DNA from: Amblyornis subalaris
Taxonomy: Eukaryota > Chordata > Aves > Passeriformes > Ptilonorhynchidae
Length of the DNA: 64,000 bases
Direction of reading: 5' to 3'
NCBI GenBank assembly: GCA_018881555.1
Contig: JACAXG010000012.1
Span: 6,436,087 to 6,500,086 of the forward strand
Part shown: piece after piece, positions 21,347 to 64,000 of the stretch
Layout: every line of letters begins with the position of its first letter
Numbering within the stretch: position 1 is the first letter of the stretch
Program-made: the position numbers and the translations under genes
The notes under the pieces: generated by a model
Told to the model about the DNA's origin: nothing
Seen by the model: only the letters and a program-made list of their open reading frames with translations
Databases searched by the model: none

Positions 21347-32414
<11,068 letters not shown>

Positions 32415-32499: not shown

Positions 32500-33135
32500 C
32501 TTCTTTTAGGCTGTTCTTCAGCTTTGGCCTCTTGGTATTATCACACTGACAGATACCTCCTATCAGAATCATCTCTTTGCCCAATTACTCTAGTTTTTCT
32601 GTTGGTTTTCTGTCTGATGCTCTTTCTGCCTCACACTTGAGTCCTCTTGCAAAGCACAGGCACCTGAGGTCTTGTTCCTCAAGAAAAGTGAATTTTGTAG
32701 ACTNGAATCATCTGAGGGAACTTCATGACTTGAGAAGGTGTGAATTGGATTTTTTTAACAAGCTCTCCATACTTTGGATCTCAAAGATGGGTCCCTTCTT
32801 AACCTGTTGCATTAAGTCACCACTTTCAAGACTGTGCAGCTGTGCTGGATTCACTACATATATACTTCCAAGGTCTTGGACTTCATCAGGAGAATGGGAA
32901 TGGTGCTCCACACCACAGTCTCTATGCCTCCTGTCAAAAGCCCCCACACAAGCCGCCTGCCCCATCTCACAAACTTCAGTCTCACTAGAACATGTTGCAA
33001 CTTNTGGCTGAAGAAGCGTCTTTGCATTTTGAGCACACTCTTCACTTTGAGATCTATCAGGACTACTTTCTGCATTGTTTTCAATTGCAGTTGTTTTCTT
33101 TTTTCTTGTTCTTGCTTTTTTAGCAGTTGTTTTCA
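32499..33135 (-). pseudogene. duplicated internal fragment of SGO2 exon 7, frameshifted
   Basis: This segment copies part of the large SGO2 exon (about 39,470-40,070) in the same chromosomal orientation, so its remnant reading frame is on the minus strand. From about 32,720 to 33,095 I count only about half a dozen differences by eye, including one extra T in a T-run that breaks the frame. Nearer 32,500-32,720 it is more altered, and about 32,628-32,690 has no match in the parent. It begins exactly at the end of a 25-base direct repeat. It has no start, no splice sites and no complete ORF. It lies in the IDH1 3' UTR, so an IDH1 transcript reading through it would be antisense to SGO2 mRNA. 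Confidence 0.9.
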
Positions 33136-37208: not shown

Positions 37209-40200
37209 TTAAACAAAGCAAGAGAGGGTCCAGCCCTGGAGAGTGAGTATATGAGAGCAGAGCAGGGGTTGCAGCATGGGAACAGTCATTGCAAGGAATA
37301 GTTTAAAGCCCAACCTTTTGATTGATGGCTCTTTGTAGCAGGCTGGCTTCTGCCTCCGCCTGGATGTGTGCCTTGATGCTTCCTCCGAGCTGGAGCAAGA
37401 CAGAACCGTGGCATTGTTCAAGTCCCGCAGTGGCCTGGTATCTGCAAAGGGAGACATTCATGTGATTTGATCAGTGATTTCCAAATCATTTCCAGATATC
37501 CTAAGAAATAACAGCTGCCAAATAGAAAGAGCTGCATTACCAGGTTTCTCTGAACATGCACAATCCTGAATCCAATCATACTCCCTCTAAATGCAGGTGA
37601 CCATTTTAATCCAAAAATACCAGACCTGCTCCTCAAAAGTCAGCTAATACATCAAATTAGGTCCCTCACTGAAAAAATACAGATCACTAATACTGACAGT
37701 ATCATGGGCCCTGGCATAGTCGAAAAATGATACAAAAACTCTGATAGTTGTAATGCCCAGAAGTTTCAGCCTGGAGGAGGCAGCAAGCTTATGGCACACA
37801 AACAACCTACGAGCAACCTACCGACTTCCAGCAAGACACAGGACCATGCCAGTGGTCACTGCAGCTTTCAAAGTGGAGTCAGCCGCAAGGGGGAGGGCAG
37901 GAGAACAAATCAAAGTACAGCCCACTCTAGTTGTTACAGGCCTGTTTGTCAACAGCTACAGAAAGAAAAACCCCACAAAACTACTCCACAGAGCATCCAT
38001 TAACAGCAACTCCCCCAAAGAAGCAGCTTAACTATTGTATTACCAGCCAAGGGATACACCCTTAAAATCCTTTTAAAAAACAAACTAACAAAACAAAACA
38101 AAAAAACCCACACAACCAAAATAATTTAGATTGGCTCCTGGTTAATTTCCAGTGAAGATATCACCTACGGGTATGAAATCTGAAACCTTGCAGCAGTAAC
38201 CAGTCTGGACCCAAAATTTGCCATCTTCTGGATATTTGGTGCCCCAATAATGCTGACTCCAGTAGGGTCAGCATCAAATTAGACTTTTCAACTGCTTGAG
38301 TACTTGATTTTCTAAATTAATAGGCATGCCTTGTAGATAACAAGAGTGGTAAGACAAGATTCAGCAAATGCTGCTAGTCTTGTCCCAATATCCACACATG
38401 GACAGGTGGACAAAAATTCTTACAGGAATGCTGATAAACTAGAAGCAAATGCAGCCACAGCAATGACTGGCCAGCACAAGTGGAAGCATAAATGGTGTAC
38501 TGGAGACTGATCTTTAACTGTGAAAAAAGAGAGGAGAGGAAATAAAATATAAGCACTTGCTGCATGGGTTTTTTGCCCTCATCTCCAAACACCGATACCT
38601 TCCCCAGGCTACCACCTACCAGGTTCCTGTGAAGGTGAGCTCCAAGAACTTGACTGAACTTGGTTTCTTTCCCCAGGTATGTCCTCTGCAGTTTTTTCTT
38701 TAAATATGAGTAAGTTTTCTGACCAAGCAGGAGATTTTGCTGGCATTCTGTTGCCCACAGTACTCAAGCTCGTGGAAACTGGTACCTCTGTAAGTCTGGA
38801 GCTGACAGGCAAAACTGCAGACTTGGTCACAGAGGAGGATTCAAGACCATGTGAAAGGTCCGTAAGACTATTTGTAAGTGGTATCTCAAGTATCTGCTCC
38901 TCCAGGAAAGCATCTGGTTCAGACAGCAGATGTGTAATGCAGGAAAACTTCCCCATCAGGACAGTTTGCTTGGATGCAAGTTCTGTGGAACTTATGAGAA
39001 CCTTAGCACCATCACTTTTTCTGGCAAGGCAATCAGTCTCTGGAGGTCTAGAGCTGCTCCTCTTCCTCTGAGGCTTGGGTTTGCAATAGGCTTCTTTTTT
39101 CAAAGCATTCATGTTGTTATCAAGTTCAGCTTGCCCTTTTTCTTGAAGGCCCCCTGTCTGGCTTTTATTGCTCTTTTGATTGCTCTTAGCAGCTCTGGGG
39201 ATTTTGCTCGCTTTGCTCCCAGGAACAGACCTGGGAGGTACATTTTCACCCCCTTCAACTTCTGTCTGGGTACAACCCAAGTTTCCTGCAAGATCCAAAG
39301 GATGGACAATATAAGTTTTCCTGCTGTGTTTAAGATTACCTGGCAAATTCTTTGTGCTCTCCTTAGCTACTCCTTGAACATCTATACAGGGCCTAAAAAC
39401 ATCAACTTCATTCCTCTGATCACAATTGCTTTTCCTGGCAGTCTTCTTCCTGCTTGTTTGGCTTCTTTTAGGCTGTTCTTCAGCTCTGGCCTCTGGTATT
39501 ATCACACTGTTTGGCAGATACTCCTCATGAGAATCATCTCTTTGCCCAATTACTCTAGTTTTTCTGTTGGCTTTCTGTCTGATGCTCTTTCTATTCACCC
39601 TTGAGAATTTTGGAGAATTTTGTAGACTGGAATCATCTGAGGGAACTTCATGACTTGAGAAGGTGTGAATTGGGTTTTTTAACAAGCTCTCCATACTTTG
39701 GATTTCAAAGATGGGTCCCTTCTTAACCTGTTGCATTAAGTCACCACTTTCAAGACTGTGCAGCTGTGCTGGATTCACTACATATGTACTTCCAAGGTCT
39801 TGGACTTCATCAGGAGAATGGGAATGGTGCTCCACACCACAGTCTCTATGCCTCCTGTCAAAAGCCCCCACACAAGCCGCCTGCCCCATCTCACAAACTT
39901 CAGTCTCACTAGAACATGTTGCAACTTTTGGCTGAAGAAGCGTCTTTGCATTTTGAGCACACTCTTCACTTTGAGATCTATCAGGACTACTTTCTGCCTT
40001 GTTTTCAATTGCAGTTGTTTTCTTTTTTCCTGTTCTTGCTTTTTTAACAGTCTTTTTCTCACCAGTTTTACAAATACCTTTGCTTGTAACCTTTACAGGA
40101 ACAAACTCAGGGACTTGGCTATAGCTGGGGTCCATTTCAAAAGCACACCCCATTTCTTTCGCCTGTGGCTGATCACAGAAACTCTCTTTACCCACAGAGT

Positions 40201-43200
40201 TTCTATGAGAAATAACAGCGGTTTGAGTAGGTGAAGCCAGGGGGCTGGGAGATCTCAGCTGTTGCTGTGTGTTGTCCTTGCTGGAGCTGCTGCTGTCCTT
40301 TGCAGTACTACCCCAAGCTGCCTGAGTGGAACAGACATGTGGGAAGATATCCAGAGTAGAAGATGGAGTGCTTGTAGCAAACAGGGTGGAACGCTTTCTC
40401 CTCTGAGTAACATGGCCTTGTGAGAGACGATCAAAGAAATGTTTTGCCATCTCATCAGCCTCACACGAAAGAGTATGACTTTCCCAGGCAAGTGCTGGCA
40501 GATTGTTGGGATTTTGTTCAGTGGTGCACAAGACCTCTGTTGGAAAGATAAAATTAATTTCTAAGACTAAGAAATGCAGCAGTCAAATGCCAGCTTTCCC
40601 CATACCACTAAAAGCCTTGCTCCATACACTACCACAAATCCAGAGAACAGAAAAAGCATGATCTTGTCTCTACAGGGACTCCCCAAACTTACTGTGTAAC
40701 AGAATTGCTCAGCTGGCTCCCCTCTGAACAAAAGGGCATCCCAAAGCAAGATCCCTTAACCAGCCATAATATTTAGGAACACTCATGATCTGTGTAAGAG
40801 TTATTATTTATATGGCAAATCCACAAGGAACAGTTGTACACCTAGTCACATCCTGCACCTTCAGACATCTCTGGAAATCTTATGTAAGCTCAGTGCTTAT
40901 TACTCAGAAAGCCTGACTTGCCACCTTGAGCTATTGCAAATGTGCCACATATCCCTCTGAAATCATCTAATTCTGGGATATACATAGCTCCAGCAATAAC
41001 AGCCCCAGTGGAGCATGTAGTTCCTACCAGTCATTAGGAGCTACTGAAGTCGTGGTTAAGAGCTAACTGGAGCTATGGCACTGCACTCATGCATTTCTGA
41101 GCACAGACATGCAAAGTCATACCAGAAGAACAGCAAAAGATGCAAATTTACCTCCAAAGATGCAAGAGTCATGAAAAGCCTCCTCTGTTTCCATTGCTTC
41201 AGTCAACTTCTTGCCATTCTCTTCCTGGTGGGACTGAGGTTTCTCAGCATGCTGTGGTGGCAAAGTATCTTTGGAGACAACAGGCACAATTTTCAGGGGC
41301 TCATTCGAAGGAGGTCTCTGAAGTTCTCCTGAGGATGTTTGTACTGCTGTGGAGCTGCCACCTTGCTGTCCTGCATCACACAGCTTGGAAATGGGCACCC
41401 TCATTGGCATCCCTGTAGCCCTGGTGAGAAGAAATAATGGCAATGGATCATATTTCTTATATATGACAGGCCCCAGAATCCAGCAGTCTAATTACAGCTT
41501 TCACCTCCATCGGGAGCTGCTGAAATACATCTCTGAAGGCTTCAAGTGCTGAAGAACACACACTGCCCAGGCAAGACAGACTTCCCATTTTTGAGCAAGC
41601 ACAACACATAAAGGAGAGCAACTGTTTTGACCACAGAAGCATGAGAAAAGTACATTGAGCCAACAAAGAAGTAAGGCTTTTCAAGCACACAAGTTGTGAG
41701 CACACGTTCCTTGCTGTGGAACACCGACGCAGCTGCTTGGTGTTATACATGTGGGCAGCTCAAAGGACTCTCCTGTCTCTAAAGGGGAGACCAGACAGAG
41801 GAGAAACAGAACTTCAGATATACTTCAAGAGATTCTGCTCTCACCATCTTTCCAGAATGCAAGCTTACATCATACAAGCAGGTGACTACTAAGCATTTTT
41901 ATGTAACAAACATCAAAGTAGCCAGCTATGGCACTCACTCAAGGAAATGTTGCAGTGCTCACCAGCTACAAAGGGAAAACTGCCTAAAAGTAACATGGCG
42001 TCGAAGAAAGGAGGTGAAAGCACCAGTTTTTGCACAGACTCAGCATTAAGATAAACAAGACAAGGAGTGGTAGTAGAAAGACAGAACAAAGGAAAGCATC
42101 AAGCAGTGGTGGTTCAGAGAACACATCTCATCTAAAACTGGCAACTAGGCACACATATAAAATACAAGAAGTTTAGCATATAGAAATTCAGGACAAGCTT
42201 AGTGGTATCATTTTAAAGCCCACCTCAGAAGCTGACCATCTGTAATATCATCAGCCCAGCTATCTTCAGTCATGCTGCTCTTCTGGCCACTGGACAAGGA
42301 TGCAGAATTTGTATGGAGCTGGAAAGAAGACAAATAGAAGAGTGGTTTAAAATTCTTGAAATCCCTCGTGCAGCCTTTTGCACAGAAACAGCAGAAGCTC
42401 AACTTCTCTGGAAAGTATGTAAAGTACTGCCAGTGACCCTCTCACGTTTAAAAATAAATTATGGAACAAATTGCAGCAGAATCAGATTATGTCTCCACAG
42501 GCCTAAGGATGAAGTTAAACTAGTTCAGATAATCTGAGACTAGGAAGCAGGAATATTTTCGCATCCACCCATGAGACAGGACATAGGGGAAAGTGTCCTA
42601 TTCCCTAGCCCAAGTTGCCAAGAAAATACTTTTAAAAAAAACTGAAAGAAGTCACAACTTCTCAGAACAAAAGAGCCTACTGGCCAATACAGCCAATAAT
42701 CCAGAGAAAAACAGTTTAAAACTGTAGCCCTTCCTACAGAAAAAGTTATCNCTGAAATCCTTAAAACCAAGCTAAAAACAAGGATGTAACCAGCACAATT
42801 CAAGCAAGCAAAAAAAACCAACACTGAAGTGAGCAGGCAACACAGAGCAAAAGACAGAGAAAAACACAGCCCTCTTCCCAGAGCAGTGTGCTCACATTTC
42901 CCATAGTTTACCTCAGACAGCTCGGCCATCTTAACTGCAGCCATAAGATTGTCCATTTTTTTCAACGTATTATTCTGTGTTGAGGTGATAAAGAGAGAGG
43001 AGCCATAAAGACATTAAATCAAAACACCTATTCCAACAAGGATACTGGTAGCCAGAGCAAGGCATATTCTAGGGAGAATACCGCTTGGGGGAAAAAAAAA
43101 AGCAAATGAATGGTGACGTTTTTCATATGCTGAGAATTCAGACATTCAACAACAGCTCAGTCCTCCCAAGGCTGAGATGCTAGTGCTGCATAACTTGCCT

Positions 43201-48509: not shown

Positions 48510-53544
<5,035 letters not shown>

Positions 53545-58200: not shown

Positions 58201-58620
58201 CCAAAAAAGGAAAGTTTGCCATGGGACAAACTTGGGGAAGAGGTAATCGACGCAGGGTGGGGAAGGAGAGGAACAGACCTACACCAGAAACTGCTCAGGT
58301 CTGCTGAGTTCAAGAGCTTTCAGGCAAAGGAGGTTCTGTAAAGAACCATTCTTTTATACTCATACACATGTTTGTACCTATCCCCCATTGGGTCAGATGC
58401 ACCACATGGAACAGCTAACAGCAGCTCAAAGTGTAGCCTACCCCTCAGTTACATGATAACTCAACTTGCACACAGCATCAGCAAATGCAGCACAAAACGC
58501 AGAAGAAATAAGAGTCCCCCATAGCAAATGCAATAAATGCCATAGCTACAATAAAGACAAAACATGAGAAACTCCCACAGCTTAGAATGGTCTTTTTTGT
58601 GTTACTTTTTGCAGATGCAG
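55245..58620. other. intergenic region after C2orf80
   Basis: No exons, RNA genes or interspersed repeats that I recognise. An 80-codon ORF at 56410-56652 has no family match by eye. Confidence 0.5.
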
Positions 58621-58634
58621 CATTAGGACTATGG

Positions 58635-58644
58635 TACATAAAAG
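58635..58644 (+). promoter_or_regulatory. TATA-like remnant of the gamma-crystallin pseudogene
   Basis: TACATAAAAG lies 55-64 bases upstream of the relic ATG at 58699. This is the spacing expected for a TATA box with the short 5' UTR typical of gamma-crystallin genes. Supported only by position and likeness. Confidence 0.4.
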
Positions 58645-58698
58645 CAAACACAATGTCTGCTAACAGCTCTCAACTTTCATCTCAGCAAATTGCCAAAA

Positions 58699-59381
58699 AT
58701 GGGAAAGAGAAGTGGAAACAGTATGACAGTCCCCTGCTCTGATGCAGACACCAGGGTGGACTATGAGTCTTTGCAAATGTTTATATTGCAGATCTTTTTT
58801 TATGAAGACAAGAGCTTCTGGGCCACTGCTGTGAATGTAGCAGAGAGCACCTTGACTTGCAGCCCTCTGTGAAACAATGCAATTCCTTTCAGGTAAAAAA
58901 AGGCCGCTAGATTATTTATGAGAGCTCAGTTACCCAGAACATCAGCACTTTTTAAAAAGGAAGAACGACCCTGACTTCCAGAAGTGGTTCAGTCTCTGCA
59001 ACTCTGTGAGGTCTTGTCATGTAATGCTACAAGTGAATTTTGCTTAGCAGCACATCCCAGTTTAAGAAAGTGGGTATAGTTTATCCTTTAAGAATATAAT
59101 TACACAGTCTCTCCAAGCAACTTGAGAGACAAGCAGAGTTCATTAAGGCAATGCAAATTTTCAGTGAAGATGAAGGAAATAATCTGTTTAATATCAAAGC
59201 TATTTCCAGGGCCTTTTCATAACTTGAAGATGCTAAAAGAAAATGGAGTGATTGTTCCCAGGTAGAGAGTATCTTTACATCACCCAGGGAAGGGCTGGCA
59301 GGCCTAGTTGATATAAGCTTCAAGCTTCTGCTGTGGGCTGATGTATGCAATTTGCTTATGACCATACTGTGTTACGATANA
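58699..59381 (+). pseudogene. gamma-crystallin (CRYG) pseudogene with three recognisable exons
   Basis: Gamma-crystallins are structural lens proteins built of four Greek-key motifs from three exons (a 9-base exon coding MGK, a 243-base exon, and one of about 275 bases). Here ATGGGAAAG (58699-58707) is followed, after an 84-base intron with a lost donor, by a TTGCAG acceptor and a 241-base exon 2 (58792-59032) ending in a GTGAAT donor. Exon 2 starts IFFYEDKSF (family ITFYED). It later shows, in a shifted frame, DFQKWFSLCNSVRSC (family DFQQWMGLNDSVRSC). Damage seen: a 1-base deletion just after the SF codons, a TAG at 58908-58910 where the family has Trp, and a second 1-base deletion after TATGAG. 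An exon 3 relic (about 59108-59381) is weaker: GAGAGACAA, a TTGAAGATGCT stretch, and GGTAGAGAGTATCTTTAC, like the family's RGRQYLL. It lies beside C2orf80, where mammals have the CRYG cluster. Confidence 0.85.
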
Positions 59382-62300
59382 ACGACACTTGAACACATTA
59401 AATCAGATTTGCAATTGGTACAGTTTTCCTAATAAAAAAGCTGTGTTGCTTAAAATCAAGCAAAGGATTAATACTTGCCAAGGTACTTCTCTCGTTAATC
59501 AGATATACTCCACAGTATAAGGCATAGCAGCAGGAACACTCCACATCCCCACGCTCACAAAGCTCAGCAGTTTCCCACACGGCAATTGCCTGCACACCAG
59601 TATATAATGGGAGCATTTGGAGTAACACAGTAAATGTCTTTTAGTAGCATAATTCTGAAAAGGCCACACTATTCAGGCCTGAATAGAGGGTAAGTGCCCT
59701 ACATCATCCCCAAATCGCATGAATACATTTGCTCCTATTGTCTCAATACAGGGTCCTTATAAATCCCATTTCTTCAAATCATAAAGCATCCTCCATTTAC
59801 TTGCTATCACATACGTGATCATGTCTATTTGTTGGCACACCTGAGCTTTTCCTTGTGGGTAAGAATTAAACCTTCTCTATTAGTTTCAAGAGTGAATCTT
59901 TTTGCAATCCCATCTCCAGAATAGAACACAAATTCTCAGAAATACACATAGAAGCTGGCAATGCTCCTTTTCCTCTATGTCTGTCTTGTTTAGTAATGTC
60001 AGAATCAGTTAGATTTCTGTCTTTCCTATATTTTTGCTATTTGCCACCACAGAGTTCTGTTTCCCACAATACTCAGCTCTATAAAAAAGAAAAGCCCCAA
60101 GGTTAAATGTTGGATCTCACTGATATTTGTCCCAGGCTATGTCCATCTCCCCAAGATTTGCTCCATCATTGTCTTAGGTGGCTCTTGGTTCTTGTATAAA
60201 ATGCCTAACTTCAGGGCAGTATTTATTGAAACCTAGGGAATAGAAAAGAATTCTTGACTGCAGTGCAGTAAATGCCCAAAATTGTCTCTTTGCAGAGGCT
60301 GGCTGACTAGCACTGAGTTACTGCTCCCATTCTAAATAAACAGTGAATGCATTCCAAAATCCTGTTTCAAACTAATCTTTCTTCAGTACTACAAACAAAT
60401 TAAAGTTGTGCAGTCCCAAGGGAAATCTGATTTCTTTCACATTTTTGGGGAAGAGGAGGAATAGTTTTAAAATATATTCACAATCAGTCAGTGGTTCATG
60501 ATAAGTTAAATATGAACTATATGAATAGTTAAATAAGTTAAATAAGTGTTAAAGGTCCAACTGCATACTGCTGGTAAGTGTACTCTTACCAAACCCCAGT
60601 AAGTGTAGTGCAAGGTCTGATTCTTTCATCTAAGTTCTCTATCNTTACAAGTTTTGAATCAAAGAATTGAGTTCAGCTCTATAAATGCCAGGGATAACAA
60701 TATGAAGTTGCACCTTTAACAGTTATTTAAATTATCATGTACTGTGGAACAGAAAAGTAAATCCCATTAATAGTTATATCCAGTGAATTACTAACTGAGG
60801 AAGAAAAGAAATATGCAGACGAACTTGGAATAATGTGAACACTGTGTTTGACATCAAATTCTTCAGGCAAACAAGCTGCTCCTACAGTTCTACCACCAGT
60901 CCAGCAAAGCTTTCCAGCCTTAACCCAGCTGATTCCTCCAAAATTAATTTTTCCAGATCCTTAAATCACACCATCTTTATGTTTTAGTGAACCTGTAACT
61001 TCATGAACTATATGCTTAACTGGTGTCAATTGCCCCTGCCTCTACTCACTTCAGAGCTGCGTTGACCTGTTGCAGTGGGAGACGGGGCAAAACCCCTCAA
61101 TTACCAGGTTATTCTGCATATAAAAGGAATTAAATAAGCATACCAGTGTAGGTTAGAAACAGGACAACATCTTGTGCTGGAAAAAGTCTATTGCAGCATT
61201 AATTAACATTCAATTACGTATATGCCTACTATTCATCACAGAATGCTGTGCCAGCAGGCACTCTGTGCAGTAATGAATAAGAGCCATAATAAAATGTAAC
61301 GAAACACAGGTAAGGGATCTCACATCTTAACATACCTCTCCTAGGCAAATATACTACTGTTTTTCAGCAGACTTCTTAGGATTTTTGGAAGGAGAAAGCA
61401 GTACAGAGAGCACAGAACTACGAAGACACTGCAACCTTATCTAGTATATGTTTAATTTTAAACAATTTCATCTTGGCTTGAAATGGTAGCCTTTGATTTT
61501 GTTTTGCCTAGCAAACATTCTGATAACGGAGTCCTTGAATAAAACCAAGCAACTTTTACAGCAGTGAGGTAGACTGATTAAAACTCACACCTCTGCTTGC
61601 TAATGTCAGAGACCTCATTTAGCCATTATTTCACATTCACATGACCCATCAGTAATAGCCTGATAACGATACTCACCAGCCTATCCCTGACAACACTCGA
61701 GAGGAAAACATATCTATTCTTTGCCCTGCTCGTCCTTTCTTTTGTACATGGGACACTATCTTTGCCCTCCTGCATGTCCTTTATTGCACGAAGTAAGCTG
61801 TTCAGCTGCTGCAAATGTTTGGTGTACATAAGAACACCATGCTTCAGCCAGAGAGAAATGGAGCGTGAAAAACTCAGCTCTCAGGGCAGAGGTGTGAAAA
61901 AGCATGTTTCCTCTTGTTCATGAACACCTAATATTGTGCGTTTATGGGAACTGCACCGTGTAAGTAATAAATGTGTTAGCATGCTTAGGTTAGCGTGGTA
62001 ACCCAGGTTTGCAAAATAACACAGCAGCTCAGGTACAGTATCTGCTCGTCTGCTTAGAATAGGGAACCAAAATACTTCACTTGTCTTCAGCAGGAATAAA
62101 ATAAAGAAAGAACAGACCAGTTCCCCAGACAGCAATTAACATATGTCTACTTACTGCACCAAAGTACCTGGTTCGATTAGTGCAATTGAGAACCTTGGCT
62201 ATGTAGTGATGTGTAGATTACATGCTGGCATTCCTCTGGTAAAGGGCAAGAATGAACAGAAATAACTATTCAGGGATCAGGGTGATAGGTAGGGTGTCTG

Positions 62301-64000
62301 GATTCTAGATTCTGCTGCATCCTAGAGTTTAGGGATGGCTAAACCTCTCCAAATTTTTTCATGTTAGACAGGAATGGTGGCAATTCCTAGTTTGAAGGAC
62401 CACTGAGAGGCTGCACTTTCTTTTGTTTGCAAATGTTCAGAGAATCTCAAGTAGACATTAAGAACAATGGTGCTAAAGGAGAGGAACATTGGGAGTTCAC
62501 AGAGTATCTAAGTTTTCACCAACAAGTCTTCTAGGCTCCTGCAGCTTGCCTCATGGTTGGTAGCAGGCACTACAGCTGCTGGCATGCAGGCTGTGCTTTT
62601 CTACAAAAACACTGCTATTTTCAGATTACTCCTATGCTTGAGTTTTTCTGAGGTGCAAAAGCGGTCAATCTCCACATAAAAGCTGCTGTTGTAACAGCCT
62701 ACTAGCTGAGGGCAACTGCAACAGATGTAAATAACCACACTTCTCAGACCATGGATACCATTTGTCTAACAAGATATTTTGGCTCCAGAGTTTAAGACCA
62801 ACCCACAGCCCTTCCTGCAGTGCACAGTTCATCTGTGGCATAGGGTCCTAGGAGGTGAAACTCTACAGGATTTGAGGAGAAGCCGTATGAGTACTTGGAA
62901 GACAAATACACTGAGAGTTTTTACACAGAGAGAAGAAACCTCCTGCTCAGAAAACCTCTTCAGCTAAAAAAGTTGAGGTCCTGAAGTTTGAATGAAATAT
63001 CATATATATTTGCTTCATATCTTCTTCAGTGCCTACTCATGACTGCAGTTGCTGCCAAGCTGTTTGACTGGCTGGGTGATTAGTGATGGCTGCTCTACAC
63101 CATGTGTTTGAGCCAAAAATTAAGGCATATTTGCTTCATGGTAGATTTTTTCTGAGTACTTCAGCCCAGAATAGATCCGTGTTTTTATTTTCTAGACTCA
63201 TTCCCTGGAAAGGTTTTACTCAGAGGGGAGAGGTTGCCAAGATATGAAATGTCTCAATACTCACAAAAAACTCAGGATTTGAAATGTGGCCCAGGAATAG
63301 CCTCAATGCTGGAATATGTCCCTCCAATATGCATGAAAAAATAAGTTCATGCATGTTGTAAGCTTTATGCACAATTGACAGTTTCCCTGTCCAGTAGAAT
63401 CTACATAGACCACTACAGCAAATTTCCAGATACATTCCATCTGCATAGGATAATGCAGCTATTTTTTTTCACTGATAAGCAATTCTGGGCTTCACTTAGC
63501 TAAGACAAGTTCTGGGTCCAAGTGCTAAAAGCTAGTGCACTCTTGTGTCCTTACAAGCAGTACGGGGAAGGAAGTCATAGGTAAAGAAGCTGGGAACAAG
63601 ACAGACTGAAAAGAAGTTGACTTGGGAGACCAATGAGGAGTGTTAAGAAGGACCAAAGAAACTGAGAATTAGTATGGGGATAGAAAAAAAAAACCCCTAA
63701 AATTAGGAAGGATACTAAAGTGTTGTTGGGTTTGGTTGTGGTTTGTTGTGGGTTGGCTTTTTTTTTTAATTAACATGTTGGACATTGCCCAGTAGCAGCA
63801 ATACTCCAATGTCTATGCAACTGCACTTGAGCACCTGCAAAAACTGTATTGCACATTGATGCAAACCAGCAAGTATTTTTCCGTAGCAAATCTTTGCTCT
63901 GCTAGATACAAGAGCCAGAGACAGTATGGAAAAAGTTTATCATCTTAGTAAATGAAAAGCAAAAAAACCCCCACATGCCTACTTAAGGCTGTGCAAGAAA
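59382..64000. other. intergenic region to the window end
   Basis: AT-rich sequence with short ORFs only. I searched by eye for further crystallin motifs (YED, WxxYE) and CR1 tails on both strands and found none. A G/T-rich low-complexity stretch is at about 63720-63770. Confidence 0.5.

Follow-up and report, generated by a model that had tools for sequence, protein, structure and literature searches.

A decayed lens gamma-crystallin gene of the CRYGA-F type beside C2orf80 in the bird Amblyornis subalaris

Sequence and profile alignment revealed the relic of a CRYGA-F-type lens gamma-crystallin gene, with three exons at positions 58699-60316 of the plus strand, in a 64,000-nucleotide stretch of the Amblyornis subalaris genome (C46:6436087-6500086, the whole of which is hereafter called the window). 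The relic is a unitary pseudogene, a kind of object already known, that is, a formerly coding gene which now carries ten disabling lesions. We hold it very probable that this intron-bearing gene decayed at its ancestral place, where it was the first of a tandem cluster, and that the cluster probably broke down one gene at a time, later than an early neoavian ancestor in which there were still working copies.

Gene structure and disabling lesions

The first exon (ATGGGAAAG, Met-Gly-Lys) spans 58699-58707 (+), and the same MGK start is found in gene models P0115 and P0117. This three-codon exon, described in the original prediction, is present, but its splice donor has been lost and reads AGAAGT instead of GT, so that we infer its 3' border; the intron borders were read from the consensus. 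Intron 1 (58708-58791, +, 84 bases) ends in the acceptor TTGCAG, and an egret (Egretta) model, P0134, runs into this same intron. The relic of exon 2, which corresponds to the N-terminal domain, occupies 58792-59032 (+) on the evidence of sequence, protein searches and profile alignment. It had been described as 241 bases long with intact acceptor and donor, and both its length and its signals, TTGCAG and GTGAAT, were as stated. Intron 2 (59033-60052, +, 1,020 bases) runs from this donor to the acceptor CCACAG. Exons 1 and 2 thus have the extent originally given to the relic, but exon 3, which corresponds to the C-terminal domain, had been overlooked. It was found by tblastn with human CRYGD (E 3e-6) and by profile alignment at 60053-60316 (+); it measures 264 bases and ends in the ancestral stop TGA at 60314-60316, and an AATAAA motif follows 18 bases 3' of this stop (60335-60340, +). 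The relic shows the CRYGA-F plan of a three-codon exon 1 and one exon for each domain, the alignment with the bird profile placing the whole C-terminal domain in the single exon 3. In gammaN and beta genes this domain is split between exons. The several disabling lesions would suit a processed pseudogene, a retrocopy made from a gamma-crystallin mRNA, but the retained introns at 58708-58791 and 59033-60052, both at the positions of the family, together with the synteny with C2orf80, refute this reading with near certainty.

Relative to bird gene models, the ten lesions are five frame-breaking indels, four stops and the lost splice donor. Exon 2 lacks one base at 58822 and another at 58926, and a Trp codon has become TAG at 58908; all three of these lesions had been predicted, and a frameshift-aware alignment recovered them. 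Exon 3 has stops at 60104 (TAA), 60241 (TAG) and 60308 (TAG), net losses of 8 bases near 60126 and 5 bases near 60216, and a gain of one base near 60276, which together account for its length (264 = 276 - 8 - 5 + 1, the bird consensus having 91 codons plus stop, or 276 bases). Altogether, 38 of 158 residues differ between the relic and the bird consensus, and the differences affect 15 of 50 conserved and 10 of 45 variable columns (p=0.49, with small numbers). The relic has been released from protein constraint, and the locus probably makes no crystallin. The 24 unknown bases in the window might suggest that the gene works and that sequencing or assembly introduced the errors. However, this is highly improbable in view of ten lesions of differing kinds, two of them net losses of several bases, of the divergence from the bird consensus at conserved and variable columns alike, and of the recurrence of both exon-2 deletions in another gene model, P0130.

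Identity and genomic neighbourhood

The claim that this is a decayed gamma-crystallin was borne out by translated searches and by profiles. A composite reading of exon 2, assembled by hand with X at the breaks, matched gammaE/F proteins at 2.9e-12 and 5e-12, whereas the best gammaS match was at 6.7e-5; an unassembled 33-aa piece from a single frame of this exon matched gammaC at 1.5e-7 and gammaS at 0.024. Pfam recognized PF00030 in the composite at 9e-6 and no family in either of the two single-frame exon-2 pieces. In frameshift-tolerant alignment, a bird-free CRYG profile of 79 rows (78 of 120 listed proteins, namely those of 172-178 aa, plus CRYGD) scored 97.9 for exon 2 and 69.3 for exon 3; the window, when dinucleotide-shuffled 40 times and scored on both strands, gave no more than 27.5. 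Its remaining plus-strand rows overlap exon 2, and its best minus-strand score was 21.1. A bird profile, built from eight of the 14 bird models described below, scored 166.5 and 123.7 for the two exons (shuffles at most 25.5); as these models were partly found via the relic, this profile is not independent and the bird-free profile is the independent test.

A tree was built with ten of the 14 bird models (P0127, P0128, P0129 and P0169 left out) and with one human sequence each of gammaS and gammaN as the outgroup. The relic fell within the bird clade (100/100), which grouped with mammalian CRYGA-F (100/99); gammaS and gammaN stood apart, and the crocodilian gammas lay outside the group of birds and mammalian CRYGA-F. 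The bird stem branch was long (0.45).

The whole genome (1.08 Gb) was searched with PF00030 and with alligator gamma-2, the best candidates alone being scored. PF00030 gave 47 matches, none of them on C46, and five of the 47 were translated. Alligator gamma-2 gave 34 matches at E up to 10, the relic among them at 0.0038, and, C106 apart, none of the further matches that span a whole domain was more than 38% identical. The open exon pair on C106 matches human gammaS at 71% and 79% and is gammaS; the open exon on C779 matches gammaN at 76% and is gammaN. Neither search yielded an open CRYGA-F-type exon among the candidates scored, a procedure that could miss a copy, and no working counterpart of the relic gene was found in the genome, as befits a unitary pseudogene. 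Descent from a duplicate of gammaS, gammaN or a beta-crystallin, all of the same superfamily, has little to commend it: the gammaS match is far weaker, the tree places the relic with CRYGA-F, the C-terminal domain is whole in one exon, and gammaS and gammaN have open exons at loci of their own. Neither its sequence grouping nor its location assigns the relic to gammaS or gammaN, and we consider this origin very unlikely.

As in CRYGA-F genes, the relic lies 3' of C2orf80 on the same strand. The upstream anchor of the region is IDH1, whose coding exons at 21386-32399 (+) were found by tblastn with the human protein in eight pieces of 44-93% identity (E 9.7e-9 to 5.5e-58), the lowest of which enters non-coding sequence. 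The exons of the next gene upstream, at 49380-52830 (+), were found by tblastn with the squirrel and argali models P0046 and P0043; the peptide joined from these pieces matched Pfam DUF5563 at 9.1e-51, and we take the gene to be C2orf80, in agreement with the predicted mammalian-like adjacency. Both the argali and the squirrel models fuse C2orf80 with CRYG, and a seriema (Cariama) model, P0140, fuses a part matching 52741-52827 to a bird CRYG, which indicates that the C2orf80-CRYG order is common to mammals and birds. The retained introns, the adjoining C2orf80, the CRYGA-F clade and the finding of no open CRYGA-F-type exon elsewhere argue, as originally proposed, for a gene that decayed in place and against a processed copy.

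Between IDH1 and C2orf80, the segments 32547-33050 and 39512-39974 are copies of each other at a distance of about 6.9 kb; three blocks of them are 91-99% identical, and they represent either a recent duplication or an assembly duplicate. The second copy lies inside a large minus-strand ORF (38609-40531), in which Pfam gives no family; the suggestion that this ORF encodes Shugoshin was discarded.

Immediately upstream of exon 1, a conserved block at 58596-58698 (+) contains the TATA-like sequence CATAAAAG (58637-58644). Compared with the nightjar (Antrostomus) model P0126, 31 of 37 virtual codons of this block are identical, the last few being in exon 1, whereas exons 2-3 agree at 99 of 157 (p=0.019 by Fisher's test, for a comparison picked post hoc). 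The relic and P0131 agree at 30/37 of these codons, and the nightjar and P0131 at 28/37. The promoter may have survived longer than the gene. The Maf-like sequence TGCAGATGCAGCA at 58610-58622, compared with TGCTGACTCAGCA, was not accepted as evidence, as the window holds 38 such matches against 29.1 expected and 12 of 100 shuffles reach the same number.

A scan of 100 kb from C46:6494000 revealed two further decayed CRYG exons downstream on the plus strand, the second weaker than the first. The first, an exon-3-like relic at C46:6500437-6500593, sits about 350 bases beyond the end of the window. It scored 50.0 with a mixed profile, 48.6 with a crocodilian and 30.8 with a bird profile, and gharial and alligator gamma-2 match it at 1.0e-4 and 1.4e-4. 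The second, an exon-2-like relic at C46:6504262-6504448, scored 41.4 with the mixed profile and, over a shorter stretch, 33.8 and 32.1 with the crocodilian and bird profiles; a frog gamma matches it at 0.001, and single crocodilian proteins at just 0.11-0.26. In 40 shuffles of the 100 kb these three profiles reached at most 29.3, 27.7 and 27.9, respectively. The relic is therefore part of a tandem CRYG array, likely a dead cluster with traces of two more genes behind it.

Inside the window itself, with the relic masked, a second CRYG was not accepted: the best score, 25.2 at 63450-63488 (+), is at chance level when taken alone (shuffles at most 25.5). Compared with exon 2 at the nucleotide level, this stretch, chosen once the scan had been seen, scores 36, a value also attained by 8 of 500 stretches taken at random. 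On account of its spacing to the downstream relic, we keep it as a sequence with which exon 2 of a second decayed CRYG, the middle gene of the cluster, may begin; exon 3 of that gene would be the relic at C46:6500437-6500593. The tail of the Otus sunia model P0179 contains GKYRRFTDW and GAMTAKVGFFQP, to be compared with GKYR*FTKW and GFMTAKAGSFLP in exon 3 of the middle relic (E just 0.12); P0179 is perhaps chimeric, joining parts of two CRYG genes that lie in tandem.

Bird gene models and the age of the loss

The reading of the relic gave 11 matches among 5.8 billion proteins: nine bird models plus P0130 and P0131 (source tag lgn). A profile of seven bird models gave 226 matches, of which 120 were listed, adding Egretta, Ibidorhyncha, Cariama, Bubo and Otus. 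Among the matches listed there are at least 14 bird models of the relic gene, from 13 species, and several are nearly open; those named CRGB or CRGD include models from Pandion, Circaetus, Calonectris, Hydrobates, Herpetotheres and Egretta. The 13 species are presumably all Neoaves, and no Galloanserae, palaeognath, squamate or turtle is named among the best 120 of the 226 matches. All these models are automated, some are LOW QUALITY, partial or oddly spliced, and model builders can skip frameshifts.

Sharing of the lesions was followed in four of the 14 bird models and in P0130 and P0131. The Egretta, Antrostomus, Calonectris and Circaetus models each need a shift at both 58822 and 58926 (the first one in Egretta being placed at 58831), whereas P0130, which has breaks of its own, crosses both positions without a shift and so shares both deletions. 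P0131 crosses 58822 without a shift and has a gap at 58926. At the level of protein models, the suggested check for shared inactivating mutations thus had a divided outcome, with both deletions in P0130, at least one in P0131 and neither in the four bird models. Judged by eye, P0131 and Antrostomus seem to have an altered start codon, and of the 11 bird models that extend over the column of the TAG at 58908, 10 keep the Trp. The egret model is not labelled LOW QUALITY, and its frame runs through exons 2-3.

The Bubo scandiacus model P0169 is a fused one, and the latter of its two parts represents a further gamma-crystallin exon 2 in a good state of preservation (PF00030 at 6.9e-19; 71% to alligator gamma-2 over 55 residues), which suggests that owls may keep a second CRYG in a better state.

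The bird consensus, counted over 11 of the 14 models (P0127, P0129 and P0169 left out), keeps 49 of the 55 columns that are conserved in 19 other tetrapod sequences, from which it follows that the common bird ancestor was under constraint. Continuing selection in birds was not seen in four slow lineages, which were picked after the branch lengths had been seen: pooled over them, 16 of 218 conserved and 16 of 189 variable positions had changed (p=0.71). Such equal change also fits an older loss followed by slow decay, and the open frames of these lineages may therefore be survivors and not working genes. Neutral simulation put the divergence of the relic between 0.10 and 0.15 substitutions per site, at about 0.13. 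The avian neutral rate is near 2e-9 per site and year. At this rate, constraint would have ended, very roughly, of the order of 65 million years ago. The suspicion of a loss that is perhaps not very ancient is supported by the bird models that are free of the lesions of the relic, although these models are automated and the date is an estimate.

Alternatively, the gene could have died a single time, on the avian stem or before Neoaves, the nearly open models elsewhere being artefacts of pipelines that skip lesions. Protein-level constraint is indeed undetectable among birds, several models are of poor quality and the bird stem branch is long. However, all four of the bird models aligned need both exon-2 frameshifts, the Trp is almost always kept at the TAG column, the egret model reads through, and most of the conserved columns survive in the bird consensus; we regard a single death as possible but rather unlikely. 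The models suggest instead several separate and fairly recent losses of the gene, not one at the origin of birds. In the course of events that we propose for this repeated loss, the gene would still have been working in the early neoavian ancestor, and constraint would have lapsed around the neoavian radiation, when delta-crystallin and its relatives would already have been carrying the soft, accommodating bird lens. Once other proteins did its optical work, the cluster would have been left unconstrained to decay in place, lesions then gathering independently, lineage by lineage. We give an even chance to a more far-reaching proposal, according to which at least three C2orf80-linked CRYG genes worked in the ancestor of Neoaves and died independently in many lineages, so that owls, petrels, eagles and herons may keep an open, even expressed copy. 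If this is true, the sequence in which lesions arose in the various birds would document how enzyme crystallins took the place of gamma-crystallins in the accommodating lens.

Comparison with known gamma-crystallins

According to a 2012 review (PMC3554465), the clustered gamma-crystallins have no orthologs in non-mammalian vertebrates, and their loss in birds is mentioned. In this review gamma-crystallins are proteins suited to lenses that are dense and inflexible, and their loss is tied to lenses that accommodate, among them the lenses of birds. The authors of PMC9012887 say that their data suggest that delta-crystallin replaces gamma-crystallin in birds, and in PMC11118217 the loss of gamma-crystallin genes was already suspected to be common. 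A CRYGA-F relic in birds was not found in the titles and abstract openings covered, most subscription journals lying outside this coverage. The locus itself is now known, with its gene structure, neighbours and lesions and with partly open relatives in other birds, and the loss of hard-lens proteins in birds, so far a mere absence, would become a succession of mutations that can be dated. For annotators, it means that the CRGB/CRGD models in bird genomes represent a real bird gene.

The mammalian CRYGA-CRYGF cluster (human 2q) resembles the relic in its MGK/N-domain/C-domain exons, its tandem arrangement and the position of C2orf80 upstream on the same strand (P0043, P0046). Unlike the mammalian genes, the bird relic is disabled and its further copies are mere traces. 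The bird copies form a clade of their own, with no one-to-one orthology to mammalian CRYG A, B, C or D. Human CRYGEP and CRYGFP (PMC3554465) are, like the relic, CRYG pseudogenes of the same cluster; however, they accompany working CRYGC and CRYGD, whereas no open CRYGA-F-type exon was found in the genome of the relic. Bird CRYGS and CRYGN belong to other subfamilies and other loci, which in this genome are those on C106 and C779 with their open exons. They are the remaining gamma-crystallins of birds, as Chen et al. reportedly stated in 2016. Finally, the CRGB and CRGD models of other birds are the same gene as the relic, with which they form the 100/100 clade, and they read as largely open where the relic is broken.
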